DNA of 64,000 nucleotides from Aneurinibacillus soli (GTDB lineage Bacteria > Bacillota > Bacilli > Aneurinibacillales > Aneurinibacillaceae): contig NZ_AP017312.1 of NCBI RefSeq assembly GCF_002355375.1, positions 2,559,001 through 2,623,000 of the forward strand. Reading direction: 5' to 3'. Position numbers and translations under genes: made by a program. Shown here in pieces: positions 27,197 to 49,475 of the stretch. The notes beneath the pieces are model-generated. The model searched no databases and was not told the DNA's origin. It was given only the letters and a program-made list of their open reading frames with translations. Positions within the stretch are counted from its first letter, which is position 1; each line of letters opens with the position of its first letter.

Positions 27197-27310
27197 TCAA
27201 CCGCTTACTGGTGGAATAAAAGCTATTTCGTCACTGTCCTTCAATCTGACGTGAAACTTGCGATGGTCGATACAAAACTCTTCCCTCCCCTTGTACTGTA
27301 GGTAGTTATT
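27197..27310 (-). pseudogene. C-terminal remnant of a MoaD-like molybdopterin synthase small subunit
   Basis: The minus-strand frame reads FHVRLKDSDEIAFIPPVSG then TGA. This is the MoaD C-terminus, except that MoaD must end in Gly-Gly to be thiocarboxylated and here the second glycine is replaced by a stop. The N-terminal half is missing. It lies at the distal end of the formate dehydrogenase operon, whose enzyme needs molybdopterin, so a moaD gene there makes sense historically. Confidence 0.6.
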
Positions 27311-27668
27311 TTGATCGCAGCTTAAGAGGCTTGTCAAAAACAAAAATCGTCATTGCAATGTCTTCCTCAATATTAATGTCCGAAAAAACTCGTACAATTT
27401 TTGCTTGTACAAGTTCTTCAAACTTTGCTAACACATCCGAAGATTGATAGATTTTCTTTACGAATTCAGTACGCGCCTCGTTTACCATTCGTTTGCCTTC
27501 TTCTGAATTCATCATAAACTTCTCTATGTTTGTCAGATTTCCTTTCATCTCACTAATGGCCCATGAGTCTATAAAACGAGTAGTAATTTCCTTTGGCCCG
27601 TTTCCAACATACTCCTTGCGTAGTTCACGAACCAACATACTAAATTGATGTTCCGTGTTTTTTGTCAT
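27306..27668 (-). CDS. DUF2294-family protein
   Basis: A 120-residue protein matching the DUF2294 pattern (FSMLVRELRKEYVGNGPKEI, LTNIEKFMMNSEEGKRMVNE, VFSDINIEEDIAMTIFVF). Function unknown. It is the last intact gene of the fdhF operon, 23 bases after the psiE-like gene, with ribosome site AAGGAGAGG. Confidence 0.8.
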   Translation of the reverse strand: MTKNTEHQFSMLVRELRKEYVGNGPKEITTRFIDSWAISEMKGNLTNIEKFMMNSEEGKRMVNEARTEFVKKIYQSSDVLAKFEELVQAKIVRVFSDINIEEDIAMTIFVFDKPLKLRSK

Positions 27669-27691: not shown

Positions 27692-28108
27692 TCATCTTTT
27701 CATCTTCGGTGTTACCATTACATAACTGATTGCAAGTATAAGAATCACCAAAGATAGCCAAAAATTCTCCAGTGGGTTTCCGTTATTTACAATAATAAAC
27801 CTGACTCCAGCCGTGAGACCGATGTAAAGAAGATAGTCTAACGGAAAATGATTGCTTTCGTTGAAATATTTCACAATCATGGAGACAAATGCGAAGTACA
27901 AGAAAAACACTAGCACTTTCCCAAGAATATCGTGAACATTATTATTTTCCAAAAATGCGTCCTTTATAATGTAAAAAAGTTCCCTGAAAAGAAAATAGAT
28001 AAGGGTAAAGCCCAGAATAATCAACGATGTATTCAACAGCTTTTGATATAATGTTATCAACCCCCTCCGTTTTTGAGGCTGATCTAATCCAAGTATATAT
28101 CCCTTCAT
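27692..28108 (-). CDS. PsiE-family membrane protein
   Basis: A 138-residue protein with four transmembrane helices and the PsiE pattern (YQKLLNTSLIILGFTLIYFL, ELFYIIKDAFL, HFPLDYLLYIGLTAGVRFII). PsiE is phosphate-starvation inducible in Escherichia coli, but its role is unknown. Its ATG shares a base with the preceding stop (TAATG), so it is translationally coupled to the DUF1641 gene and probably serves the formate dehydrogenase at the membrane. Confidence 0.85.
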   Translation of the reverse strand: MKGYILGLDQPQKRRGLITLYQKLLNTSLIILGFTLIYFLFRELFYIIKDAFLENNNVHDILGKVLVFFLYFAFVSMIVKYFNESNHFPLDYLLYIGLTAGVRFIIVNNGNPLENFWLSLVILILAISYVMVTPKMKR

Positions 28109-28587
28109 TATTCTTTTAAGCCTTCCCCGATCCCCTTCAGCAAACTAATTCCGAATCCCATTGCCCGATTAATGTCAGGGTCCCGTAACGCCTTCATTAG
28201 ATCGATAATTCCCACCTTCTCATTTGATCGAAGTCTCTCCTCTGATTTCTGGATTCCTTTTGCTACACCGGCCATCATTTTTTTGGTCATTTCTGGATTT
28301 AGCTCTGTCAACGCTCCTGCTGCTGCCATTGCATTATTGATCATGTTGGTAACAGGGGGGCGCACCATTTGCCCCACCAAGATTTTAGCCATTTGTTCTC
28401 TCGCTTCGATTGCGGCGTTAAAGGCTCCAAGAATTCCACTTTCGTGAAGTTCCTGAAGTAGTTTTATTGTTTCCTGGATACCATCTGCATTTTGAGCAAG
28501 TACTTGGATGACGTTTTCAACGGCTTGACTTTGCTTCTCGCTTTCAGTAAAAGGCGTTTTGGCAATTTTGGTAATGGGTCTCGCCAT
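28108..28587 (-). CDS. DUF1641 protein (YrhD-like), formate dehydrogenase partner
   Basis: A 159-residue mostly helical protein with the DUF1641 core ILGAFNAAIEAREQMAKILV and DPDINRAMGFGISLLKGIGE. In Bacillus subtilis yrhD lies beside yrhE, the formate dehydrogenase gene, and the pairing is common; it is probably an accessory or membrane-linking subunit. It is coupled to fdhF through a TAATG stop-start overlap. Confidence 0.88.
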   Translation of the reverse strand: MARPITKIAKTPFTESEKQSQAVENVIQVLAQNADGIQETIKLLQELHESGILGAFNAAIEAREQMAKILVGQMVRPPVTNMINNAMAAAGALTELNPEMTKKMMAGVAKGIQKSEERLRSNEKVGIIDLMKALRDPDINRAMGFGISLLKGIGEGLKE

Positions 28588-31538
28588 TATTGTTTACCTC
28601 CTGGTATATTTACATCTGCAATTGGTTGATAATCTTCTCTTGCCCATTTGCGTTCTACTTGTACCCCCATCTGTGGATTGCGTTTGGCATGACGAGGATT
28701 GTACATCGGAAGTGGCTTTATTCCGTTTGGTTCGAGAACCTCCATTCGAACCTTGACTTGTTTATAAGCTGGTGTATGCGTTTGGACATCGACTGCCCCA
28801 CCAGTTAACAAATTCACAGCACTTTCATGACTTGTTGAATGCATGGGAACGTATATGTCTTTCCCCCGCATGCGATCGGTCACAAGCGCACGAAGTTTGA
28901 TTTTTCCATAAGGTGATTCAAGACGTACCAGTGATCCATCTTTGACTTTCCGCTCTTTGGCCAACTCCGGTGAGATTTCCATAAACACTTCCGGAAGTTT
29001 GTATTGGATGCCTTCGGATTTGTTTGTAAGATTTCCTTCGTGGAACTGTTCAAGTAAACGGCCATTGTTTAGCGTCAGATCGAATTCCGCCGGGAACTCC
29101 ACAGGTGGGATATACTCAAAGAGTGACAACCGAGCTTTTTTATCCGGGAAGTTGAACCCCTTCGTATACAAGAGCGGCGTGTTACTTCCGTCTGGTGATC
29201 CCCAATGGAAGCTGCCCCAGCCTTCCAATACGTCGTAATTACATTGCGAGAAAAATGGCGTAAGCGACGCCATTTCCGCGTAAATTTCACTTGGATGACT
29301 ATAATTCCAATCAAATCCCATCCGTTTTGCTAGTTGACTGAAAATCCACCAGTCGGGCTTACTGTCGCCCATTGGCTCAAATACTTGGTACAATCGTTGC
29401 ACACGACGTTCGGTATTCGTAAACGTACCATCTTTTTCAAGCGAAGGCACAGCTGGCAAAATGATATCAGCAAATTCAGCAGTCTTGCTTAGGAATACGT
29501 CTTGCACCACAAGAAAATCGAGATTCGCAAGCATCTCTTGGGTATGGTTGGAATCCGCATCCGTCCATGCCATCTCTTCCCCAGAGATGTACATAGCCTT
29601 GATCTCGCCTCTACCTATAGCCTCTAACATTTCGATGTTGTTCAGACCACGTTCGCCTGGAATTTTAACGCAGTAGGCCGCTTCAAATTTGGCGCGAATC
29701 GCGTCGTCTGTAACCGGTTGGTATCCTGGGAAAATATCTGGCATCGTTCCCATATCAGCAGCACCTTGAACGTTGTTATGCCCACGAAGCGGAAACGCAC
29801 CTGCGCCTGAACGCATAAAGTTTCCTGTAATCAGAAGCAGATTGGCAATCGCAGCAGATGTATAAGAGCCTGCTACGTTTTGCGTAACACCCATCCCCCA
29901 ACAGATCGCGGTTCCATCTGCATCGCGAATCATTTCGGCTACTTTGATCAACGTTTCTTTTGAAATACCTGTTTCTTTTTCAGCGAATTCCAAAGTGAAT
30001 CTTTGAAGCAGTTTCAAATATTCTGGATAGAAGTTTACGTGTTCTTCGATGAATGTAGGATTATGCCAGTTCTGATCGATCATGTACTTGGCAACAGCCG
30101 ATAACCACACATAGTCCGTTCCTTGTTTCGGGCGAATGAACAAATCAGCGCGGTCAGCCATTTCGTGTCTGCGAAGGTCAACGGCAATAAGCTTATGTCC
30201 GTGTAATTTTTGCGCACGTTTGATTCGTGTTGCGAGTACAGGATGTCCTTCGCCTGGGGCGCATCCGACCAATATGACAAGACCCGCCTCGGCAAGGTCT
30301 TTGATGGTGCCGGAGTCGCCGCCAATTCCACCAGTCTGCTGTAGGCCCCAAGATGCCGGAGACTGGCAGTACCGCGAACAATTATCTACATTGTTCGTTT
30401 GGAATACTTGACGTGCTAATTTTTGCATCAAGTAGTTTTCTTCATTGGTGAACTTAGACGAAGAAATGAAGCCAAGCGCCTTTCCACCGTACGTTTCTTT
30501 AAGGGAACTCAGCTTGCTTGCCATCAGGCTTAACGCCTCTTCCCACGTGACTTCTACAAATGCTTCACCCCTACGAATTAATGGTTTCGTTAGTCGTTCT
30601 TTGCTGTTGACGAAATCCCAACCGAACTTTCCTTTTACACAAGTGGATATACTATTGACCGGTGAATTTTCCGTTGGCTCAATTTTCAAGATTTTGCGAC
30701 CCTTAGTCCATACTTCAAACGTGCAACCTACCCCGCAGAACGTACAAACTGTTTTGGTCTTCTTAGTCCGCGTCTCCCGCATAGAGGCTTCTAGTTCAGA
30801 AATCGCGAAAATGCCGCTGTAACCAGGCTCGACTTCTTTAATCAAATCGATCATCGGATTGAGCAGATCCTCTTTAATACCGGACATAAAACCAGCCTCA
30901 CCTAACATCGACTTCTCCATCAACGCATTACATGGGCAGACCGTTACACACTGGCCACAGGATACACAAGATGATTCATTAATGGACTTATTGTCATCCC
31001 AGATCACCCGAGGAATATCTCGCTCCCAATCGATCGTGAGCGTTTCATTTACCTGTACATCTTGACATACCTCTGTGCATCGCCCACATAGAATGCATTG
31101 ATTAGGATCGTAACGATAGAAGGGATGTGACATGTCCACTTCGTAACCTTTTTCACGGAACGGACGTGTTTGATGCTCAATTTCAAGCAACTCTGCGGTA
31201 TTGTGAACCCGACAATTTCCGTTATTATTGTCACATACTGTGCAATACAACATATGATTCTCTAAGATTCGATCCATAGCTTCATTTTGGGCACCCTTTG
31301 CTAACTCGGAAGAAGTAAGGATGTTCATTCCCTCTTCCATATAAGTAGAGCATGCCCTCATAATTTTTCCGTCTATTTCACACATGCACGTATCACAAGT
31401 TTGAATAGGACCTAAAATAGGTGAGTAGCAAACATGTGGATGTTCAATTCCTTGCTGCAAAAAGTAGTCAAGAATTCGAGTTCCTTCTTCCACTTCATGC
31501 ACCACGTCGTTAATTCGAACGCTCAATCTTTTCTTCAC
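28587..31538 (-). CDS. fdhF: Molybdenum/tungsten formate dehydrogenase, alpha subunit (YrhE/FdhF type)
   Basis: A 983-residue cytoplasmic enzyme. The N-terminal 2Fe-2S ferredoxin domain (about 1-80: HVCYSPILGPIQTCDTCMC) and a His/Cys NADH dehydrogenase-like G domain are followed by two 4Fe-4S clusters (CILCGRCTEVCQ, CVSCGQCVTVCPC). The catalytic part starts at CTFCGVGCTFEVW (a further 4Fe-4S) and contains NCSRYCQSPA, where the second cysteine replaces the selenocysteine of E. coli FdhH. The C-terminal molydopterin-dinucleotide domain is complete. It oxidises formate to CO2, electrons probably passing to NAD or quinone. GTG start with AAGGAGG 7 bases upstream. Confidence 0.95.
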   Translation of the reverse strand: MKKRLSVRINDVVHEVEEGTRILDYFLQQGIEHPHVCYSPILGPIQTCDTCMCEIDGKIMRACSTYMEEGMNILTSSELAKGAQNEAMDRILENHMLYCTVCDNNNGNCRVHNTAELLEIEHQTRPFREKGYEVDMSHPFYRYDPNQCILCGRCTEVCQDVQVNETLTIDWERDIPRVIWDDNKSINESSCVSCGQCVTVCPCNALMEKSMLGEAGFMSGIKEDLLNPMIDLIKEVEPGYSGIFAISELEASMRETRTKKTKTVCTFCGVGCTFEVWTKGRKILKIEPTENSPVNSISTCVKGKFGWDFVNSKERLTKPLIRRGEAFVEVTWEEALSLMASKLSSLKETYGGKALGFISSSKFTNEENYLMQKLARQVFQTNNVDNCSRYCQSPASWGLQQTGGIGGDSGTIKDLAEAGLVILVGCAPGEGHPVLATRIKRAQKLHGHKLIAVDLRRHEMADRADLFIRPKQGTDYVWLSAVAKYMIDQNWHNPTFIEEHVNFYPEYLKLLQRFTLEFAEKETGISKETLIKVAEMIRDADGTAICWGMGVTQNVAGSYTSAAIANLLLITGNFMRSGAGAFPLRGHNNVQGAADMGTMPDIFPGYQPVTDDAIRAKFEAAYCVKIPGERGLNNIEMLEAIGRGEIKAMYISGEEMAWTDADSNHTQEMLANLDFLVVQDVFLSKTAEFADIILPAVPSLEKDGTFTNTERRVQRLYQVFEPMGDSKPDWWIFSQLAKRMGFDWNYSHPSEIYAEMASLTPFFSQCNYDVLEGWGSFHWGSPDGSNTPLLYTKGFNFPDKKARLSLFEYIPPVEFPAEFDLTLNNGRLLEQFHEGNLTNKSEGIQYKLPEVFMEISPELAKERKVKDGSLVRLESPYGKIKLRALVTDRMRGKDIYVPMHSTSHESAVNLLTGGAVDVQTHTPAYKQVKVRMEVLEPNGIKPLPMYNPRHAKRNPQMGVQVERKWAREDYQPIADVNIPGGKQ

Positions 31539-31561
31539 AGCAAATCCTCCTTTTCAAAATA

Positions 31562-31621
31562 AAAAACCCACCATAAAACAACTTGTGTAGACGTACTACA
31601 CAAACTGTTTTATGGTGGGTT
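31562..31621 (-). terminator. Long terminator hairpin directly in front of the fdhF ribosome site (attenuator)
   Basis: AACCCACCATAAAACA (31565-31580) and TGTTTTATGGTGGGTT (31606-31621) are perfect inverted repeats of 16 bp, extended by an inner TTGTGTAG/CTACACAA stem. On the minus strand the stem is followed by TTTTT and, 17 bases on, by the fdhF ribosome site. There is no room for a promoter between hairpin and gene, so fdhF transcripts must cross it. Confidence 0.85.
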
Positions 31622-31763
31622 AACTACTAAGCATACTATATACTAGTTATCCATCCCGCCATATAGTAACGAAAAAGAACAGGACATTATGGTAATTCAT
31701 TATTACCTAACATCAATGAACTTTTTCGTTTTCCTTATACCAATTTAAATGACTTATTGTTAA
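31622..31763 (-). promoter_or_regulatory. fdhF: Structured leader upstream of the fdhF attenuator
   Basis: Three further pairings are present: TACTATAT/ATATAGTA (31634-31641 with 31661-31668), AACGAAAAAG/CTTTTTCGTT (31668-31677 with 31721-31730), and GGTAAT/ATTACC (31691-31696 with 31702-31707) nested in the second. A candidate promoter reads TTAACA (31763-31758) and TATAAG (31739-31734), 18 apart, but its start point would clip the outer helix, so the real promoter may be further up. The layout resembles a ligand- or factor-controlled leader; the Moco riboswitch consensus could not be recognised. Confidence 0.5.
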
Positions 31764-31838
31764 TAATAACACAATAATTTGCTATTATCTATAACATATC
31801 GGCTTACATTCAAATTAAAGCGGTGGCTGGTCAACTTG

Positions 31839-32654
31839 TTATAACCACATACTTAGTAAAATTAAAGCACCTACTAACCAGCAATAGTACGCAAATGGTC
31901 GCATTGCTGTGATTTCATTTTCCTTAAACCATCTCATCAAAATCCACACACTTATAAAAGCAAAAATCCCAGACATCACTCCACCAATAAGAGACATTTG
32001 CAGCAAGCCATGAGTTCCACCTTTAATTAGCTTCGGAATTTCTAAAATGCTGGCTCCAGCAATTATCGGGGTAGCCAATAACATAGAAAAACGAGCAGAT
32101 GCCTCGTGCTTCAACCCCATCCAGAAACCGGCTGTCATACTTGATCCAGAACGAGAAAAACCCGGTATCAGCGCAAGGGATTGGAAGAGCCCAACGATTA
32201 ACGCTTGTCCAACAGTCAAATCATCAATTTCCTTATCACCTCTGGAGCGCATTTTTTCTCCAAAATAGAGAAAAAAACCATTTAAGATTAAAAATATAGC
32301 AGCACTTGTAACACTGCTAAACATGTGTTTAAGTGGTTTCTCCAATACAAGACCAATAATGGCTGCTGGTAGTGTTGCAACAATGATTAATAACAAAGTT
32401 CTCTTACTTCCGCTAAAAAGCGAACGAATAATTTGCATCCAATCATGCCAAAAGAAAATGAATAAGGCGACAGCTGTACCCAAGTGAAGCATAACGACAT
32501 ACGGTAAAAAGTGCTCTTTAAGGAATTCAGGATCTAATTTCCAATGAAAAACAAATGGGGTCAAAACCCCGTGTGCTACGCTGCTGATTGGAAATAACTC
32601 CGTAATACCCTGAATGATCGCAAAAATGAGTGTTTGAATAATGTCCAAAATCAT
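31839..32654 (-). CDS. uppP: Undecaprenyl-diphosphatase
   Basis: A membrane enzyme of about 271 residues (BacA/UppP family) that dephosphorylates undecaprenyl diphosphate for wall synthesis and gives bacitracin tolerance. Both active-site motifs are present: QGITELFPISSVAHG near the N-terminus and PGFSRSGSSMT in the middle. About eight helices. ATG at 32654 is preferred (AAAGG upstream); in-frame ATGs at 32669 and 32696 are alternatives. Confidence 0.92.
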   Translation of the reverse strand: MILDIIQTLIFAIIQGITELFPISSVAHGVLTPFVFHWKLDPEFLKEHFLPYVVMLHLGTAVALFIFFWHDWMQIIRSLFSGSKRTLLLIIVATLPAAIIGLVLEKPLKHMFSSVTSAAIFLILNGFFLYFGEKMRSRGDKEIDDLTVGQALIVGLFQSLALIPGFSRSGSSMTAGFWMGLKHEASARFSMLLATPIIAGASILEIPKLIKGGTHGLLQMSLIGGVMSGIFAFISVWILMRWFKENEITAMRPFAYYCWLVGALILLSMWL

Positions 32655-33265: not shown

Positions 33266-34051
33266 TCAAAGATATAGATCTGTCTTGGTAGATGATAATA
33301 TAATCTTTTTAGAAGCAGGTTGGGTGCACTCAAACATCTTAGCAGTGTCAATCGTCTCTGCAATTGTTCCTTTATCGATAATCGCCACACAATCGGAAAG
33401 AACGTTTACAGCCATGACATCGTGTGAGATAAAGAGATAAGAAAGGCCTATTTTTTCCTTTAATTCCTTTAGGTGAAACAAAATTTGCTTCTGTACAACC
33501 ATATCTAAACTGCTGACTGGTTCATCAAGCACAATCAATTTCGGCTTTAGTGCAATCGCTCGAGCTATATTTACCCGCTGTAGTTGTCCTCCGCTCATCT
33601 GATTCGGGGTCTTATGCATATCACCGGCAATAAGACCTACTGTTTCCAACAATCCGAAAATAATGCGTTTTTCTTCTTTTGCAGACAACCGCTCATAGTT
33701 GCGGAGAGGCTCTCCAATAATTTGTTTTACAGTCATGCGTGGATTAACTGCTGAATAACAATCCTGAAAAACAGCCTGCAAATCACGGCGCAATTGTTTT
33801 CGCGTTCGACGATCGGTTCGATACAAATCTTCCCCTTGAAACCTTACGCTCCCACTACCTGGAGGGAGAAGCCCTAGAACGATTTTGCCCAGTGTGCTTT
33901 TCCCCGCTCCACTTTCTCCCAAAAGACCTAGACACATTCCGGGTTCTACAACGAATGAAACATTGGTAACGCCTGATTCTGCCTTCTTTGCTCGAAACCA
34001 GCCAGATGAAGAATACGTTTTGGAGATTTGATCCGCAACCAATAAACTCAC
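33266..34051 (-). CDS. ABC transporter ATP-binding subunit, CntF/NikE-like
   Basis: A 261-residue ATPase: Walker A GESGAGKS (45-52), Q-loop VFQDCYSAVNPRM, signature MSGGQ (152-156), Walker B LIVLDEP (172-178) and H-loop ISHDV. It belongs to the oligopeptide/nickel importer class, with an atypical C-terminus. Its start overlaps the MFS gene by four bases. Together with the CntD-like ATPase it powers the operon's importer. Confidence 0.88.
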   Translation of the reverse strand: MSLLVADQISKTYSSSGWFRAKKAESGVTNVSFVVEPGMCLGLLGESGAGKSTLGKIVLGLLPPGSGSVRFQGEDLYRTDRRTRKQLRRDLQAVFQDCYSAVNPRMTVKQIIGEPLRNYERLSAKEEKRIIFGLLETVGLIAGDMHKTPNQMSGGQLQRVNIARAIALKPKLIVLDEPVSSLDMVVQKQILFHLKELKEKIGLSYLFISHDVMAVNVLSDCVAIIDKGTIAETIDTAKMFECTQPASKKIILSSTKTDLYL

Positions 34052-35238
34052 TGAACCACCACCTTTTGTCTGCGATAAAGAAGAACCAGTATCAATGTAA
34101 CGACACCAATAGAAGCCGCTGCTTCTAACATAACCTGATAAGAAAATTCGTCAGCAATCCATCCCATCACAAAAGCTCCCATAGACGTACCCAAATCTGC
34201 AGCAGCAATAAACCATCCGATGGCATAACCTCGGACATGCTCTGGAACGACAAAAGAAATGTAGGTCATGAGCGTCGGATACAGCAAAGATAGCGCTAAT
34301 CCGTTACATATCGCCGCGCCAAGCAGAACAGGCATGGAAAGAGACCCAGCGATTAGCGCGGGAGATACCGTAAAGCAGCCGATGAGGATAACAAGAAGCC
34401 ATTTCGGAAAAACCCCCGAGGAAGGGATATGTTTACGTCCAAAAAAACGGATGATAATTAACACAGCTGTTTCCGTCAAGAAATAAAGTGGAGCTGAATG
34501 CATCCCACGACTTTCCAGATATAATGGTAAAAATGTAGGCGCCACACTGAATACAATGGAAGCCAGCAGCATGATGAGCGAGGGAACGATCAATGTCCTG
34601 ACAGCCTTCCTTTTTCCCCCATCAGATGAATGAGCTGTACTCGTTTCTTCTTTTTTATGAAAACGATTGTTTAGTTTCCGGAATAAATGAGTTCCCATAA
34701 AAATATTACAAAAGCCCAATCCCGCAAAGATCAGAAACATTTCCGTCATCGAAACTTGATTTTTCATATATAAGACCAACGCAGGCACAAAAGTATACGG
34801 TAGCATCGATGCCAGAGACAGTAAAGATAGCCCCTGTCCCCGTACCTTGTCGGATAACAAATCAATGATGAGCAGATGGACGGTCATCGAAAAAAACGCC
34901 AATATCGCTCCCTGCAAAGCTCTCATGATGGCAAAAGTCCACAAATTTCCGACGGTATAGGTGACAAGCACCACCGCATTTAAAATGAGAGCAATCATAA
35001 AAATGTTTTTCGGGCCAAATCGATCCACAATAGAACCTGCCAGTGGACGTAGAAACATGGAGACAAACATGTATGCGCCCATAATGATACCAATTTCCGA
35101 GCGTCCAGCACCTAGACTTTGTGAAAAAAACGGCAGGGCAATAAGCAGCATATGATTGACCGCATAAAAGATAAACGCAACCGCGTACAGCCAAATGGCC
35201 CGATTAGAAAAAGGGTTTTCTTTTAATGAAGAGTTCAA
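34048..35238 (-). CDS. MFS exporter, CntE-like (opine metallophore efflux)
   Basis: A 396-residue, 12-helix MFS protein. Motif A-like GPKNIFMIALILN and typical features of CntE proteins (MGAYMFVSMFLRPLAGSIVD, LLYPTLMTYISFVVP, IAAADLGTSMGAFVMGWIAD) are visible. In staphylococci CntE exports staphylopine. It is embedded between the two ATPase genes with 4-bp ATGA overlaps on both sides, so it belongs to the same operon. The CntE assignment rests on remembered family features and on this gene order. Confidence 0.78.
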   Translation of the reverse strand: MNSSLKENPFSNRAIWLYAVAFIFYAVNHMLLIALPFFSQSLGAGRSEIGIIMGAYMFVSMFLRPLAGSIVDRFGPKNIFMIALILNAVVLVTYTVGNLWTFAIMRALQGAILAFFSMTVHLLIIDLLSDKVRGQGLSLLSLASMLPYTFVPALVLYMKNQVSMTEMFLIFAGLGFCNIFMGTHLFRKLNNRFHKKEETSTAHSSDGGKRKAVRTLIVPSLIMLLASIVFSVAPTFLPLYLESRGMHSAPLYFLTETAVLIIIRFFGRKHIPSSGVFPKWLLVILIGCFTVSPALIAGSLSMPVLLGAAICNGLALSLLYPTLMTYISFVVPEHVRGYAIGWFIAAADLGTSMGAFVMGWIADEFSYQVMLEAAASIGVVTLILVLLYRRQKVVVQ

Positions 35239-36062
35239 TTCGCTTTCGACTCCTGTTCGTTCCTGATACCAACCGTTAGTCTAGCATCCAATAATAATTT
35301 GGTATATTCGTGTTTTGGACTGGCAAATAGTTGATCCACTGGAGCGCTTTCTACGATTTGGCCATGCCTCATGACGGCCACTTCATCGGCTAGTTCGCCG
35401 ATAACGTTTAAATCATGAGAAACGAGCAAAAGCGCTGTTTTTCCTTGTGTTTTAATGGTTCGAAACGCCTCGATAACATTACGCCGGTTCACATTATCGA
35501 GAGCGGTTGTCGGTTCATCGGCAATCAAGAGAGACGGCTTCAGCAATGTGGATAGGGCAATCATCACTCGCTGCAGCATACCGCCGCTCAATTCAAAGGG
35601 ATATTGTCTAAATACCCTTTCCGGATCAGGCAGATTCATTTGCTTCAAACAATCGATCGCTTTTTCTTTCGCCTGTTTTCGTGACAAGTCTGTATGTGTA
35701 CGTATGGTTTCAATGAATTGCCTTCCAATAGTCAAGACAGGATTAAAAGCGGTCATCGGATTTTGCAGAATTAACGATAATTCCCGGCCGCGAATCCGAC
35801 GTATTTGTCCTTCATTCATATCCATCAGTTCACGTCCTTGAAGACGGATGCTGCCATGCACAATGCTCGCAGAACGATGCAGCAGTTGAAGAATCGCCAG
35901 ACAAGTCATGGATTTTCCACATCCGCTCTCTCCTACAATGCCCAAGACTTTTCCCGCCTCTATTCGAAACGACACATTCCGTACCGCTTGTACCATGCCC
36001 CGATCCGTTTGAATTTGTACGTACAATCCATTTACATCAAGTACGGTGTCCCTTCCGTTCAT
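35235..36062 (-). CDS. ABC transporter ATP-binding subunit, CntD/NikD-like
   Basis: A 275-residue ATPase: Walker A GESGCGKS (44-51), Q-loop LILQNPMTAFNPV, signature LSGGM (158-162), Walker B LLIADEP (178-184), H-loop VSHDL. It overlaps the permease gene before it and the MFS gene after it by four bases each. The C-terminal extension found in dipeptide ATPases is shortened. Confidence 0.9.
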   Translation of the reverse strand: MNGRDTVLDVNGLYVQIQTDRGMVQAVRNVSFRIEAGKVLGIVGESGCGKSMTCLAILQLLHRSASIVHGSIRLQGRELMDMNEGQIRRIRGRELSLILQNPMTAFNPVLTIGRQFIETIRTHTDLSRKQAKEKAIDCLKQMNLPDPERVFRQYPFELSGGMLQRVMIALSTLLKPSLLIADEPTTALDNVNRRNVIEAFRTIKTQGKTALLLVSHDLNVIGELADEVAVMRHGQIVESAPVDQLFASPKHEYTKLLLDARLTVGIRNEQESKAN

Positions 36063-36943
36063 CGCGTTCCTCCTACCTTTTGTTCACTTACTCTTCCAAT
36101 TTTTCGTATGGATTTCGTTAGTCCTTTCCTTTCACCTAGCGTTTCACCCAATATATTAAGCAACGCCACCATACAAAAAATCATCAGACCAGGCACGATC
36201 ATCAATCTCGGATGACTGCGTAAGAACGATTTGCCTTCATTAATCATTGCTCCCCATTCAGGCGTTGGGGATTGTACACCAAGCCCGATAAATGACAAGG
36301 CAGAAATGTCCATAATCACCCAGCCAATTTCCAACGTCACGACAATGAACAGAGAAGGAAGCAGATTCGGAATGATGTGGCGAAGCATCATACGGAAAGG
36401 TGATGTACCACATATCCGAGCAGCCACGATATAATTCTGCTGTTTAAGGTTAGATACGATACCGCGAATGAATCGTGCATAGTAAACGGACTGGACGATG
36501 ATTAAGGCGAGCGCCATCTGCTTCCATCCCGCTCCCCAAATCGCAATCAAACTAATCGCCAGAATAAGGGCAGGAAACGCGAGAACCGCATCGCATCCCC
36601 GCATGATGATACTATCGATCTTTCCTCCTGCATAGCCCGCGAGGCAGCCAATAACAAGTCCGAGTACCACGCAGGAGCATACAATAAGCAGAGCGAGACT
36701 CAACGATACTTGCGTTCCATATAACAGACGAGAAAGTATGCAGCGGCCCAACTGATCTGTACCTAACGGAAATTGAGCGGAAGGGCCCTCCAATTTGTGC
36801 GATAAATCAACAAGAACCGGATCATTTGGGGCAAGGATCGGAGCAAGAAGCCCGGCTAGCACAATCGCCGATAACAGCAGAACGCAAATGACAATGATCC
36901 GTTGACGACCTGCCACCAAAAAAATTTGTCGAATGCTATCCAA
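36059..36943 (-). CDS. ABC transporter permease, CntC/NikC-like
   Basis: A 294-residue permease with six helices and the EAA-type loop ARICGTSPFRMMLRHIIPNL. The N-terminal region LLAPILAPNDPVLVDL and FPLGTDQLGRCILSRLLYGT are typical of DppC/NikC. TTG start at 36943 with GGGGGAG upstream, 3 bases after the previous stop codon region. Confidence 0.9.
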   Translation of the reverse strand: MDSIRQIFLVAGRQRIIVICVLLLSAIVLAGLLAPILAPNDPVLVDLSHKLEGPSAQFPLGTDQLGRCILSRLLYGTQVSLSLALLIVCSCVVLGLVIGCLAGYAGGKIDSIIMRGCDAVLAFPALILAISLIAIWGAGWKQMALALIIVQSVYYARFIRGIVSNLKQQNYIVAARICGTSPFRMMLRHIIPNLLPSLFIVVTLEIGWVIMDISALSFIGLGVQSPTPEWGAMINEGKSFLRSHPRLMIVPGLMIFCMVALLNILGETLGERKGLTKSIRKIGRVSEQKVGGTR

Positions 36944-36946
36944 TGA

Positions 36947-37900
36947 CTACTCCCCCTTTCCCGTCTCTTGCGTCAAACGCGGATCTAAATAGGCTTGGAT
37001 CACATCTGCCGCCAAATTCCCCAATACAAATACCACGACCGTGATAAAAATAAAACTTTGAATAACCGGGTAATCCCGGTGATAGACCGACTCGAGAAAA
37101 AAAACGCCGATCCCTGGCATGGAAAAAATTTGTTCCACGATTACCGTGCCCGCAAACAGTTTCCCTAAATTCATGCCCGCGGCGGTAACAACCGGACGTA
37201 TAGCATGGCGAAGCACATGACGCCCCACTACAGTGAATGTTCCAATTCCTCTCGCTCTGGCATACAAAACAAACGGCTCATCCAGGCTTTCCAGCAAACC
37301 CGTCCTCAATAACCGGGAATACGTGGCGATCAACGCAAACGCCAGTGTGACAGAGGGAAGAACAAAATGCAGCCAAGAGTCGGCCCCTTGCAGCGGAAAC
37401 CAATTCAGCTTCACCGATAGAAAATAAATCAACAAGTAGGCAAGCCAAAACTGCGGTACAGATGCCCCAAGAAAAGCTAATAATCGGCAGACATGATCAA
37501 TGAGATGGTTTTTGCGAAGCGCAGCCGCAATACCAAGCGGAATACTGATGATAATGGCAATGGCCAGACTTAGCAAAGCCAATGTGGCTGTCACAGGGAG
37601 TCTAGCAACTAGCTCACGAGAAACTGACAATTTGCTAAAAAAGGAGGTACCGAAGTCCAATCGACATAGTTGCCATAACCAGTGTCCATATTGCGGCCAA
37701 AAAGGCCGATCCAGTCCTAATTGAGCACGTACAGCGTTTATCGTTTGTTCCGTTGGAATGATATTAGAGACAGACAAATACGCTTTTGCAGGGTCTACCG
37801 GTGTCAGACGTAAAAGCAAAAAGGAAACGAATGTAGCCCCCAAAAGAACGGGGGCCATAATGGCGAATCTTTTCAATATATAAAACAACATTTGCATCAT
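36947..37900 (-). CDS. ABC transporter permease, CntB/NikB-like
   Basis: A 317-residue permease with the DppB/NikB N-terminus (YILKRFAIMAPVLLGATFVS), RLTPVDPAK, and the EAA-type loop RARGIGTFTVVGRHVLRHAI. It forms the channel with the CntC-like partner. It follows the binding-protein gene by 14 bases. Confidence 0.9.
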   Translation of the reverse strand: MMQMLFYILKRFAIMAPVLLGATFVSFLLLRLTPVDPAKAYLSVSNIIPTEQTINAVRAQLGLDRPFWPQYGHWLWQLCRLDFGTSFFSKLSVSRELVARLPVTATLALLSLAIAIIISIPLGIAAALRKNHLIDHVCRLLAFLGASVPQFWLAYLLIYFLSVKLNWFPLQGADSWLHFVLPSVTLAFALIATYSRLLRTGLLESLDEPFVLYARARGIGTFTVVGRHVLRHAIRPVVTAAGMNLGKLFAGTVIVEQIFSMPGIGVFFLESVYHRDYPVIQSFIFITVVVFVLGNLAADVIQAYLDPRLTQETGKGE

Positions 37901-37914
37901 AGTAACACCTTGTT

Positions 37915-39555
37915 TTATTTTTGAATATCCAACATGCTAAATGGCGTTTCATCACGGTGAGCTGGGAACTTCAAGCCCTTCACATATTTCGGATACACCG
38001 CAATATTGGTCAAATAGGAAATCGGCAAATATACGGCCTGCTCATGCAGTGTTGTAAATATAGAGGTGTACAGCTTCTGCCGTTCTTTTTCATCGACCGT
38101 CAGCAGAACATCTTTCATCTGTTGATGAAGCTTGTCTTTCATCGGAAGTCCCTGCTGCGATTCGAAAATGCCGTAACCTTTCTCGTAGTTTGTCGATACA
38201 AACGAATGGGGGTCATATGGCGCTCCATATGTATTCCAGAAAAGTAAATCAAAATCCGCACTTTCCATCCGTTTGTTGCGAAGTTCTCTTTCCACCCCAG
38301 TTGTTTTGAGTGAAACACCGATTTGTTTTAAATCGGATTGAATTGCAGCCGCCATTGGCTTTTCAATCTGATCTGGTCCCATGTAAACTAGTTCGATTTC
38401 AAGTGGTTTTCCGTTTTTCTCGCGAACTGTCTTCCCAGCCGGAAGTGTCCATCCTGCTTTATCCAATAAAGCTTTTGCCTCTTCTACATTATAATCGTAT
38501 GGCTTCAGACCAACATTCGCATAAGGAAAGTTACTGGATATAATTGTATCAGCAACTTTCTCGACGCCATTGGTCACCCCGTCCACCAACGCTCTCTTAT
38601 TCACAGCATGCTGCAGAGCCAGACGAACATTCAAATCGGCAAATGGCCCCTTCGCCGTGTTAACAATTAGCGCGCGACTAGCCACAGGATTGGATACAGA
38701 AGTTTCAAATTTACCGGAATCTCTCAGATTCACAAACGAATCCAGACTAATGACACCCTCACCATATATCAGATCAATATCGCCCTTCTCCAAAGCAAGC
38801 ACTCTAGCCTCTCCGTCCGGAATTACTTTAACGACGAGCTTGTTGATTTTTGGCTTTGTTCCCCAATAATTTTCATTTCGGGTAAACACAGCGATTTTGT
38901 CTTTTTTATATTCTGACAGCACCCATGGTCCGGTAGTAATTGGCTTTTTGATGCCCTTGGCCGTATCTCCGTCGGCCGGGAAGCCCGCAGCTCCCAGGAA
39001 ACGCAGAGGGCGTACAACCGCAAATTCTTGAAGTGCCGGGTAATAACGGTTTTTCAACGTTACTTTAAACGTATGAGCATCGACCACTTCCGTCTTGTCG
39101 ATCTGGCTGATCAATCCAAGCCAACTATGCATGTTTCGGTTGGCAAGAATGGTGTGAAAGTTTTTCTGCACGACATTAGCATCAAAATCAGAGCCATCTG
39201 TAAATTTCACATTTTTCCGTAAATGAAAGGTATAAACCTTACCATCTTGCGAAATATCCCATGACTCCGCCAAACGAGGCACCAGTTTCCCGCCTTCTCC
39301 ATAGTCAATAAGAGGCTCATAATACATCCCTTGGGCAAAAAATTCATTCGGTGTATATTCATGCGGGTTTAGCGGCCCGATATCTTTTGGCCAGGAGATG
39401 GTCAAAGTCTTTTCTGTAGAAGCTGGTGTTTGTCCTTCTGACTTCACTGATGATTCTGTATTTTTATTCAAGTCAGTCTTGCATCCTGCAAGGATAACAG
39501 GTAAGAGAAGTACAAAAATAAATGAAATATACAGTCCTTTAAATTTGCGAAACAT
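37915..39555 (-). CDS. Substrate-binding lipoprotein, CntA/NikA-like
   Basis: A 546-residue lipoprotein. The signal peptide ends in the lipobox LAGC (C24 or C25). The SBP_bac_5 fold is clear: NPHEYTPNEFFAQGMYYEPL, LAESWDISQDGKVYTFHLRK, and the NikA/CntA-type region ADFDLLFWNTYGAPYDPHSF. Family members bind nickel, cobalt or zinc complexed to histidine or to opine metallophores. First gene of a six-gene operon preceded by a Fur-type box. Confidence 0.88.
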   Translation of the reverse strand: MFRKFKGLYISFIFVLLLPVILAGCKTDLNKNTESSVKSEGQTPASTEKTLTISWPKDIGPLNPHEYTPNEFFAQGMYYEPLIDYGEGGKLVPRLAESWDISQDGKVYTFHLRKNVKFTDGSDFDANVVQKNFHTILANRNMHSWLGLISQIDKTEVVDAHTFKVTLKNRYYPALQEFAVVRPLRFLGAAGFPADGDTAKGIKKPITTGPWVLSEYKKDKIAVFTRNENYWGTKPKINKLVVKVIPDGEARVLALEKGDIDLIYGEGVISLDSFVNLRDSGKFETSVSNPVASRALIVNTAKGPFADLNVRLALQHAVNKRALVDGVTNGVEKVADTIISSNFPYANVGLKPYDYNVEEAKALLDKAGWTLPAGKTVREKNGKPLEIELVYMGPDQIEKPMAAAIQSDLKQIGVSLKTTGVERELRNKRMESADFDLLFWNTYGAPYDPHSFVSTNYEKGYGIFESQQGLPMKDKLHQQMKDVLLTVDEKERQKLYTSIFTTLHEQAVYLPISYLTNIAVYPKYVKGLKFPAHRDETPFSMLDIQK

Positions 39556-45263: not shown

Positions 45264-45400
45264 CTTGCTTATTCTCCTCTAAAGCCCGATATAATACTGT
45301 TTTTGATAAAAATGTTGAATCTATAAGGTGTTTCAGTTTATTATATAGTATATTGAATTTTTCCCTTTAATCATTTAAAACGTAAGTTCAAAAATCAATA

Positions 45401-45460
45401 GTATAACCTCATAGATATGGTATGAGGGTCTCTACCAGGAACCGTAAAATCCTGATTACA
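45401..45460 (+). ncRNA. Purine riboswitch aptamer, adenine class
   Basis: P2 is CCTCATA/TATGAGG (45407-45413, 45421-45427) with loop GATATGG. The joining region CTCTACC matches the invariant core. P3 is CAGGA/TCCTG (45436-45440, 45450-45454) with loop CCGTAAA; the two loops are the usual kissing pair. The base that reads the ligand (position 74 of the class) is T at 45456, as in adenine-binding members; guanine members have C. P1 is short here (GTA/TAC). It precedes the adenine deaminase gene. Confidence 0.92.
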
Positions 45461-45502
45461 AAAAGTGTATTTTTACATTATTTGTAATCAGGATTTTTTT
45501 AT
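45446..45502 (+). terminator. Expression platform (terminator) of the adenine riboswitch
   Basis: Positions 45446-45462 pair perfectly over 17 bp with 45481-45497 (TTTGTAATCAGGATTTT), followed by T-rich DNA. The left arm contains the 3' strand of P3 and the ligand-reading junction, so aptamer folding and termination exclude each other. This predicts that adenine turns the gene on. Confidence 0.9.
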
Positions 45503-49185: not shown

Positions 49186-49300
49186 ATAAAAAAAATCCTC
49201 CCCGTTCATTTGGAAGGATTAGCCGTACCTTTACATGATGAAATAAGCTATTTTCATTAATAGCTCTACAATTTATAGAAAATGGGCAGACTAATCCTAT
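49186..49300 (-). promoter_or_regulatory. vmlR: Attenuator in the vmlR leader (terminator and anti-terminator)
   Basis: On the minus strand AATCCTTCC (49220-49212) pairs with the GGGGAGGATT region (down to 49194) and is followed by eight T: a terminator just before the vmlR ribosome site. CTAATCCT (49222-49215) can instead pair with AGGATTAG (49298-49291) upstream, which would break the terminator. This is the layout of ribosome-mediated antibiotic-induced attenuation. Confidence 0.78.
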
Positions 49301-49352
49301 TTTGTATGATTTGAAATATGTGATTTCAAATTTTAAAAATAAGATTAGTTAA

Positions 49353-49367
49353 TCATCGTCCACCCAT
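49353..49367 (-). CDS. Four-codon leader peptide of vmlR (MGGR)
   Basis: ATG GGT GGA CGA TGA on the minus strand follows AAGGAG (49375-49370) at ideal spacing and lies upstream of the anti-terminator strand. Stalling of a drug-bound ribosome on such a short frame is the known trigger for this type of regulation. Confidence 0.6.
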   Translation of the reverse strand: MGGR

Positions 49368-49475
49368 CACTCCTTCTGCTATTATTAAAATCAGTATATC
49401 ACAAACTCGTCTGTAAAAACAAAAGTAAGTAACCATGTAAGTCGCTTCTTGGTCTATTCTCTAACAAGTTTTTAA

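Follow-up and report, generated by a model that had tools for sequence, protein, structure and literature searches.

What controls the transcription of a formate dehydrogenase gene that has a terminator directly before it? The question is raised by a 64,000-nt stretch of the Aneurinibacillus soli genome (hereafter, the window), in which a strong hairpin with a T run precedes fdhF. A sequence-only reading had described this hairpin as 16-bp and 8-bp parts followed by a U-tract, had seen three helices further upstream, and had proposed that fdhF is controlled by termination and antitermination, perhaps in response to formate, molybdate/tungstate or molybdenum cofactor (Moco). We found that the fdhF leader lies on the minus strand at about 31727-31561 and is composed of a 5' hairpin, an antiterminator hairpin and a terminator (Table 1). 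Based on the promoter-like site upstream, the leader RNA probably starts near 31727; the window copy of the promoter scores 7/12 under a rule requiring a final T in the -10 element. The region marked in the sequence-only reading opens at this promoter-like site.

Table 1. Features of the fdhF leader and of the genes behind it (window coordinates).
Feature	Coordinates	Strand	Basis
Putative promoter: TTAACA (31763-31758), 18-nt spacer, TATAAG (31739-31734)	31734..31763	-	by eye
5' hairpin with conserved internal loop	31671..31727	-	folding; covariation in its helices
Antiterminator hairpin, proposed sensor	31611..31663	-	predicted fold, -16.2 kcal/mol
Intrinsic terminator: stem 31621-31565, T run 31566-31561	31561..31621	-	folding, -37.0 kcal/mol
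fdhF ribosome binding site GGAGG	31546..31550	-	sequence
fdhF, formate dehydrogenase alpha subunit	28587..31538	-	TIGR01591, 1.7e-237, above cut-off
DUF1641 protein, ForE-like partner subunit	28108..28587	-	PF07849, 4.6e-16
PsiE-family protein, fdhF gene string	27692..28108	-	PF06146, 1e-23
MpsC (DUF2294) small protein, candidate partner	27306..27668	-	PF10057, 4.2e-30

The window FdhF resembles YjgC/YrhE of B. subtilis, that is ForC in the naming used in the available part of PMC8808070, and a close FdhF (match E ≤ 1e-200) is present in 175 of 398 genomes of the class. The same genome holds a second fdhF (G000:C1:52319-55246) that carries a type-2 element (see below) at G000:C1:55305-55426, with an mpsC homologue 162 nt away. 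The window FdhF is 86% identical to a copy in another family (G284) and 65% identical to its own paralogue, and the genus mates (G001-G006) have FdhF matches with 60-67% identity to it. The window fdhF and its leader were probably acquired horizontally, judging from the sequences.

The terminator has 26 predicted pairs, a 5-nt loop and six T, and lies 22 nt 5' of the GTG at 31538. The hairpin and U-tract of the sequence-only reading were confirmed as a terminator, with the stem predicted as one continuous 26-bp helix and not as 16 + 8 bp. Its three upstream helices were replaced by one long 5' hairpin and the hairpin at 31663-31611, whose overlap with the 5' arm of the terminator was absent from that reading. 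Specifically, the terminator 5' arm doubles as the 3' strand of the antiterminator, thus the two predicted structures are mutually exclusive. In prefix folding of the window leader, the antiterminator was predicted until the 3' arm of the terminator was made, and the terminator after that (energies in Table 1). The fold of 31555-31765 had a z of -8.4, with 0 of 200 shuffles equally stable. With the terminator excluded (31621-31765) the z fell to -2.5 and 5 of 200 shuffles were equally stable, so the surplus over shuffles comes mostly from the terminator. The window antiterminator reads UAUGGCGGG-AUGGA-UAACUAGUAU...AUGCUUAGUAGUUAA-CCCACCAUA, and this hairpin is the most conserved portion of the element family. 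The internal loop of the 5' hairpin is UUCAUUGAUG ... CAUCCUG across the family, with GUCCUG in the window copy.

An initial BLAST search with the leader gave two strong matches, in genomes from a different family; each lies before an fdhF orthologue and has a HIT-family gene (by likeness) upstream, where the window has uppP. Across the class, 28 of 398 genomes matched at E ≤ 0.01, several of them weakly. RNAalifold on a MAFFT alignment failed to recover the 5' hairpin, and the structure of the covariance model R1 was set by hand on 19 of these leaders (type 1; L046 was left out of alignment A1). At E ≤ 0.1, R1 gave 29 matches in 26 of the 398 class genomes, 23 of which matched at E ≤ 4e-7; the E-values of R1, R2 and R3 are all rough. 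The weaker genomes were G214 (1.7e-4), G337 (0.003) and G262 (0.013, chance-like). FdhF-like ORFs, assigned at R1 and R3 sites from 90 rows of FdhF matches listed, stood downstream on the same strand within 700 nt of 25 R1 matches, once at 644 nt with a small ORF between. A covariance search had been named as a check in the sequence-only reading, and the helices turned out to be kept before fdhF in these relatives, with covariation.

R1 matched 1 of 348 phylum-wide genomes, the window's own, and 2 of 61 genomes in the family of G187, none beyond those already found. A DNA pattern search of named genomes returned 21 stretches, 20 of which were matched by R1, the exception being a Bacteroidetes record. 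The genera include Brevibacillus species, Peribacillus, Niallia, Cytobacillus, Robertmurraya, Sporosarcina globispora and others. The R1 loci L061-L089, except L072, L074, L076, L085, L086 and L089, were entered into the comparison with these stretches. No type-1 5' hairpin was seen by eye in L085/L046 (G337), and a third copy in G320 (L089 1501-1622) is apparently decaying, having lost its terminator by eye and having no adjacent fdhF. L086 (G262, E 0.013) and L107 (the Bacteroidetes record, which R1 did not match) resemble chance matches.

Across 34 distinct type-1 rows, 84.1% of the cells were paired and the covariation was 0.240, compared with 0.132 when shuffled and at most 0.078 when slid. 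These values are supportive and not a probability, because the rows share ancestry and were aligned to fit the structure; the cells tally sequences and not evolutionary events. The covariation was concentrated in the 5' hairpin, and the 3' hairpin hardly covaries because its sequence is nearly invariant. A further pairing between the two, of AUCCUG in the 5' hairpin with CGGGAU in the antiterminator, was possible in 84.8% of cells; its covariation was 0.167, the same as when shuffled, and we do not claim it. A promoter-like site (≥9/12) was detected just upstream in 27 of the 34 distinct elements versus 11% of shuffles, the window copy being outside the 27. On this sequence evidence, the leader structure is more than chance: fdhF is preceded by the same hairpins in other families, also where the gene upstream is a different one, and compensatory changes are seen, mostly in the 5' hairpin.

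These comparisons also bear on the simplest alternative, an ordinary uppP terminator that happens to sit inside the fdhF transcript without regulation. It agrees with the strong intrinsic terminator found between uppP and fdhF. However, the element stays before fdhF behind unrelated upstream genes (e.g., the HIT-family gene), and we reject the uppP reading for this reason. The promoter-like sites just upstream in most relatives and the conserved competing hairpin also speak against a plain uppP terminator, which we consider highly improbable.

A second form of the element was recognized among 60 further fdhF upstream regions, which were a choice among the FdhF matches listed. This type-2 form reads GGAUUGGU...RGUA...UGCY...CUAYUCCAC, and its UCCAC strand is also used by the terminator that follows. 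Of 40 type-2 pieces found, 33 were aligned (A4; four with adjusted ends), and model R3 was built from these 33 with no type-1 row and a structure set by hand. R3 matched the sense strand of 42 of the 60 upstream regions at E ≤ 1e-4, 33 of these being training rows, and 18 regions had no R3 element at this threshold. Run on 250 class genomes, R3 gave 68 matches, spread over 53 genomes and 14 families, at a per-genome E ≤ 0.01, a threshold at which chance alone should yield two or three among the 250. FdhF-like ORFs followed 54 of the 68 matches, at 18-329 nt. R3 also matched the type-1 element of the window (E 7.4e-7), suggesting that types 1 and 2 are related. A weak R3 match in Brevibacillus reuszeri (E 0.015; L274 1166-1262) stands before an FdhF/YdeP-like oxidoreductase gene that is followed by moeA-/mobB-like genes (by likeness).

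The predicted folds of type 2 follow the same scheme. When the pieces were cut before the 3' arm of the terminator, the antiterminator was predicted in 33 of 33, and the terminator was predicted in 31 of the 33 full pieces. Covariation in the terminator and inner stem was 0.378 versus 0.190 when shuffled and at most 0.120 when slid. The antiterminator helices scored 0.205 versus 0.118, with the outer helix poorly kept in many rows (70.9% of cells paired). By a strict rule, the 5' hairpin was found in 8 of the 42 type-2 leaders versus 12 of 2100 shuffles. Since it is rare in type 2, the antiterminator and terminator together form the common core of the family.

The genes behind the elements were profiled by family scans or, for all ORF names given without a scan, by likeness. 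Two elements lie 7-8 kb apart in Peribacillus simplex, Peribacillus sp. SI8-4 and Niallia sp. NCCP-28, the first at the head of a Moco operon and the second at the head of fdhF. The P. simplex operon encodes an Mrp-like ATPase, FdhD, MoaA, MoaC, MoeB/ThiF, MoeA and MoaE (family scans), and the other two operons were read by likeness. In G355, one type-1 element stands before a small ORF with a second formate dehydrogenase, and another before the fdhF operon. The 14 R3 matches not before fdhF showed a related range of genes. MoaA-MoeA followed R3 sites in two genomes (one MoeA scanned, the rest by likeness), and in G010 one site lies before PsiE-Mrp and one before a formate/nitrite transporter (PF01226), the only channel seen. 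FdhD followed a weak site in G103 (E 4e-4). UPF0126/PF03458 proteins stood behind R3 sites in six genomes, namely G158, G071, G170 (at 528 nt), G111, G187 and G214 (Pfam scans for four, likeness for two; the elements in G187 and G214 belong to type 1). Three further sites precede seemingly unrelated genes, for a 162-aa protein without assignment, an IS110-like transposase (by likeness) and a HepT-like protein. From this list, the element targets largely formate oxidation and its cofactor supply. UPF0126 recurs as an element target or as a formate dehydrogenase/Moco neighbor (L106, L129, L130, L232, L233, L234, L241), and a UPF0126-like gene (by likeness) lies inside the fdhF gene string of Bacillus sp. 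MUM 116. In many genomes, mpsC/DUF2294 genes are closely linked to elements and fdhF.

With these targets, the proposal that fdhF is under termination/antitermination control gains strong support from conserved predicted hairpins that exclude each other, from covariation, from the promoter-like sites (27/34) and from the presence of the same device before linked genes. We regard it as very likely that the element is a regulated attenuator. That it is the transcription-attenuation RNA of a formate dehydrogenase/Moco regulon, absent from Rfam, is in our view moderately probable.

To place the element among known RNAs, Rfam scans were run on the window element, 20 sources with the window copy among them and 20 type-2 sources, and no family reached its cut-off; the microRNA names that appear below cut-off merely reflect long hairpins. 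ANTAR-protein leaders (NasR, EutV) have two hairpins before a terminator, whose hexaloops carry A1 and G4. The element likewise has two hairpins before a terminator, but by eye no such A1/G4 hexaloops were seen, and in both hairpins the loops differ in length and sequence between copies. A terminator/antiterminator architecture would also suit attenuation by a leader peptide or by tRNA (T-box). However, no T-box match appeared in the Rfam scans of the element and no short frame common to the 5' hairpins was seen by eye, and we regard such attenuation as most improbable. The pfl/ZTP RNAs are reported near one-carbon genes, and crcB/fluoride RNAs near formate hydrogen lyase genes among others and often overlapping terminators, in the part of PMC2864571 available; neither family was listed in the Rfam scans of the element.

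By gene context, the element can be compared with the Moco RNA (RF01055). According to the accessible part of PMC2408646, this RNA is a 5' leader before Moco biosynthesis genes and Moco enzymes, with some copies followed by terminators, and the element, judged by position, likewise lies before fdhF and moaA/moeA operons. The same source describes up to five helices with a multistem junction, a GNRA tetraloop and its receptor, whereas the predicted consensus of the element is two consecutive hairpins with one further, non-covarying pairing between them. RF01055 had no match at E ≤ 5 in 31300-32000 of the window. No report of an fdhF leader RNA of Bacilli or of a formate riboswitch was found in the literature searched, including the consulted portions of PMC2408646, PMC11109978, PMC8632094, PMC7266159, PMC6429828, PMC2864571, PMC8808070 and PMC6689103; the 2017 '224 candidate RNAs' paper lies outside this comparison. 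With no Rfam family at cut-off and no such leader in this literature, we place the element among the terminator-linked leader RNAs, a known kind, as a new class. As in riboswitch classes, a conserved sensor-like hairpin that excludes a terminator stands before related genes.

How the attenuator may work can be sketched from the predicted folds. The computation shows the conservation, the mutually exclusive predicted folds and the gene linkage; the ON direction, direct sensing, the ligand and co-transcription go beyond these. RNA polymerase would start near 31727 and make the 5' hairpin and then the antiterminator, which, as the first to form, would sequester the strand AACCCACCAUA. If the antiterminator is stabilized, the terminator would be blocked and fdhF transcribed, presumably together with the forE-, psiE- and mpsC-like genes. 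If not, the much stronger terminator would capture the strand and transcription would stop before the ribosome binding site. The antiterminator would thus be the default first fold, and its stabilization would switch the genes ON. We infer ON control because the sensor-like hairpin is itself the antiterminator and no anti-antiterminator was seen. The likely recognition site is the internal loop of the antiterminator, GGAUNGA.../UUAA in type 1 and GGAUUGG.../CUACUCC in type 2. As this loop is invariant, direct sensing is the simpler reading, and we lean towards a small molecule being sensed directly by the element.

One design precedes formate dehydrogenase, moaA/fdhD/moeA/mrp and, once, a formate channel, so the signal is taken to switch a formate-oxidizing system ON. 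The candidate ligands of the sequence-only reading (formate, molybdate/tungstate, Moco) are all consistent with such a regulon. Formate is our first guess and molybdate/tungstate or Moco our second, with formate itself possible but short of probable. Formate would account for fdhF, fdhD and the channel, and also for the requirement for Moco. UPF0126, which Pfam names 'Glycine transporter', has no obvious place among formate genes and counts against the preferred reading. The ForCE system of B. subtilis is alike in its controlled genes, a catalytic subunit and a DUF1641 protein; the available part of PMC8808070 reports control by SigB and ResED, and the words terminator and antitermination do not occur in it. 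According to the same part, the two ForCE operons seem not to be expressed under the conditions by which formate dehydrogenases are typically regulated (anaerobiosis, fermentation, formate induction), which we count against the preferred reading. The most specific form of the formate reading would make the element the first natural RNA class that senses formate directly, a ~50-nt antiterminator aptamer spread over many families of Bacilli that turns on formate dehydrogenase, the Moco and sulfuration pathway, the formate channel and UPF0126 transporters; we consider this unlikely.

An RNA responsive to molybdate/tungstate or Moco would instead report the metal or cofactor state, with a regulon of Moco synthesis and its main consumer. 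Elements head moaA/moeA operons, the G187 and G214 elements lie inside mod/moe/mob gene clusters (by likeness), the fdhF gene string of the two Peribacillus genomes closes with a modB-like gene (by likeness), and Moco RNAs elsewhere precede the same kinds of genes in the part of PMC2408646 available. This signal would explain fdhF and the moa/moe operons, yet it would leave the channel unexplained. Moreover, no element was found directly before modA or modB in the loci examined, and fdhD and the formate channel are tied to formate and not to molybdenum. RF01055 was above cut-off in 0 of 20 element genomes (6 had sub-threshold matches), which bears on the known Moco RNA only. We rate a molybdenum or Moco signal as rather doubtful.

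The stabilizing factor could also be a trans-acting protein that binds the antiterminator, as LicT/BglG proteins do on RAT hairpins. RAT designs are hairpins with internal loops overlapping a terminator, with GGAUUG in the 5' strand and CAAAACC in the 3' strand. The universal core of the element is RAT-like in its predicted folds, being one ~50-nt hairpin with internal loops that overlaps the terminator 5' arm, as in the LicT/SacY/BglG targets, and carrying GGAUUG in its 5' strand; its 3' strand, however, has CUACUCC or UUAACCC in place of CAAAACC. The bglG-cis-reg family (RF03530) was listed at E ≤ 0.5 for 1 of 20 sources, the window copy alone (31.3 bits vs a cut-off of 80), and for 0 of 20 type-2 sources. 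No sugar gene was recognized among the element targets examined, and no BglG-family gene by eye among the ORFs of the loci examined.

The best candidate for such a protein is MpsC/DUF2294, which would itself sense formate, CO2 or redox state. PF10057 was detected in 20 of 20 element-bearing genomes versus 9 of 20 genomes without an FdhF match, and in 18 of the 20 it lies no more than 6 kb from an element, in 13 of them at 55-285 nt. Counted by element, it lay within 6 kb of 21 of 31, a list for these 20 genomes that excludes the degenerate copy in G320 and the weak site in G103. MpsC is small, with basic residues invariant in 15 aligned sequences, and the available part of PMC6689103 reports no growth defect for an mpsC deletion in S. 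aureus. On the other side, MpsC may simply belong to the formate dehydrogenase system. Its predicted model is confident (pLDDT 91), and fold searches with it returned no clear relative (best E in Foldseek 0.07; best Z in VIA 7.6, a value that common arrangements also reach), leaving RNA binding unsupported, and a sequence search of the PDB gave no match at E ≤ 1. We rate antitermination by a protein as a realistic but less favored reading, short of probable.

Under the preferred reading of a regulated attenuator, the element would provide a concrete regulator for a formate dehydrogenase system that is common in Bacilli. It would join fdhF, Moco synthesis, mrp, the formate channel, UPF0126 and perhaps mpsC into one regulon, giving a lead to the roles of UPF0126 and MpsC. 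Should formate prove to be the ligand, the element would serve directly as a biosensor part in formate-based C1 biotechnology, and should a protein be needed, it would point to a new family of RNA-binding antiterminators.

Other features were also recognized in the window. A purine riboswitch aptamer (RF00167, 66.7 bits) lies on the plus strand at 45379-45478, and a match to the Bacillus sRNA ncr1575 (RF02452, 160 bits) on the minus strand at 49189-49388. The region 33266-39555 contains ABC transporter genes of the peptide/nickel type, their two ATPase genes separated by one for an MFS exporter, and resembles an opine-metallophore uptake cluster (by likeness).
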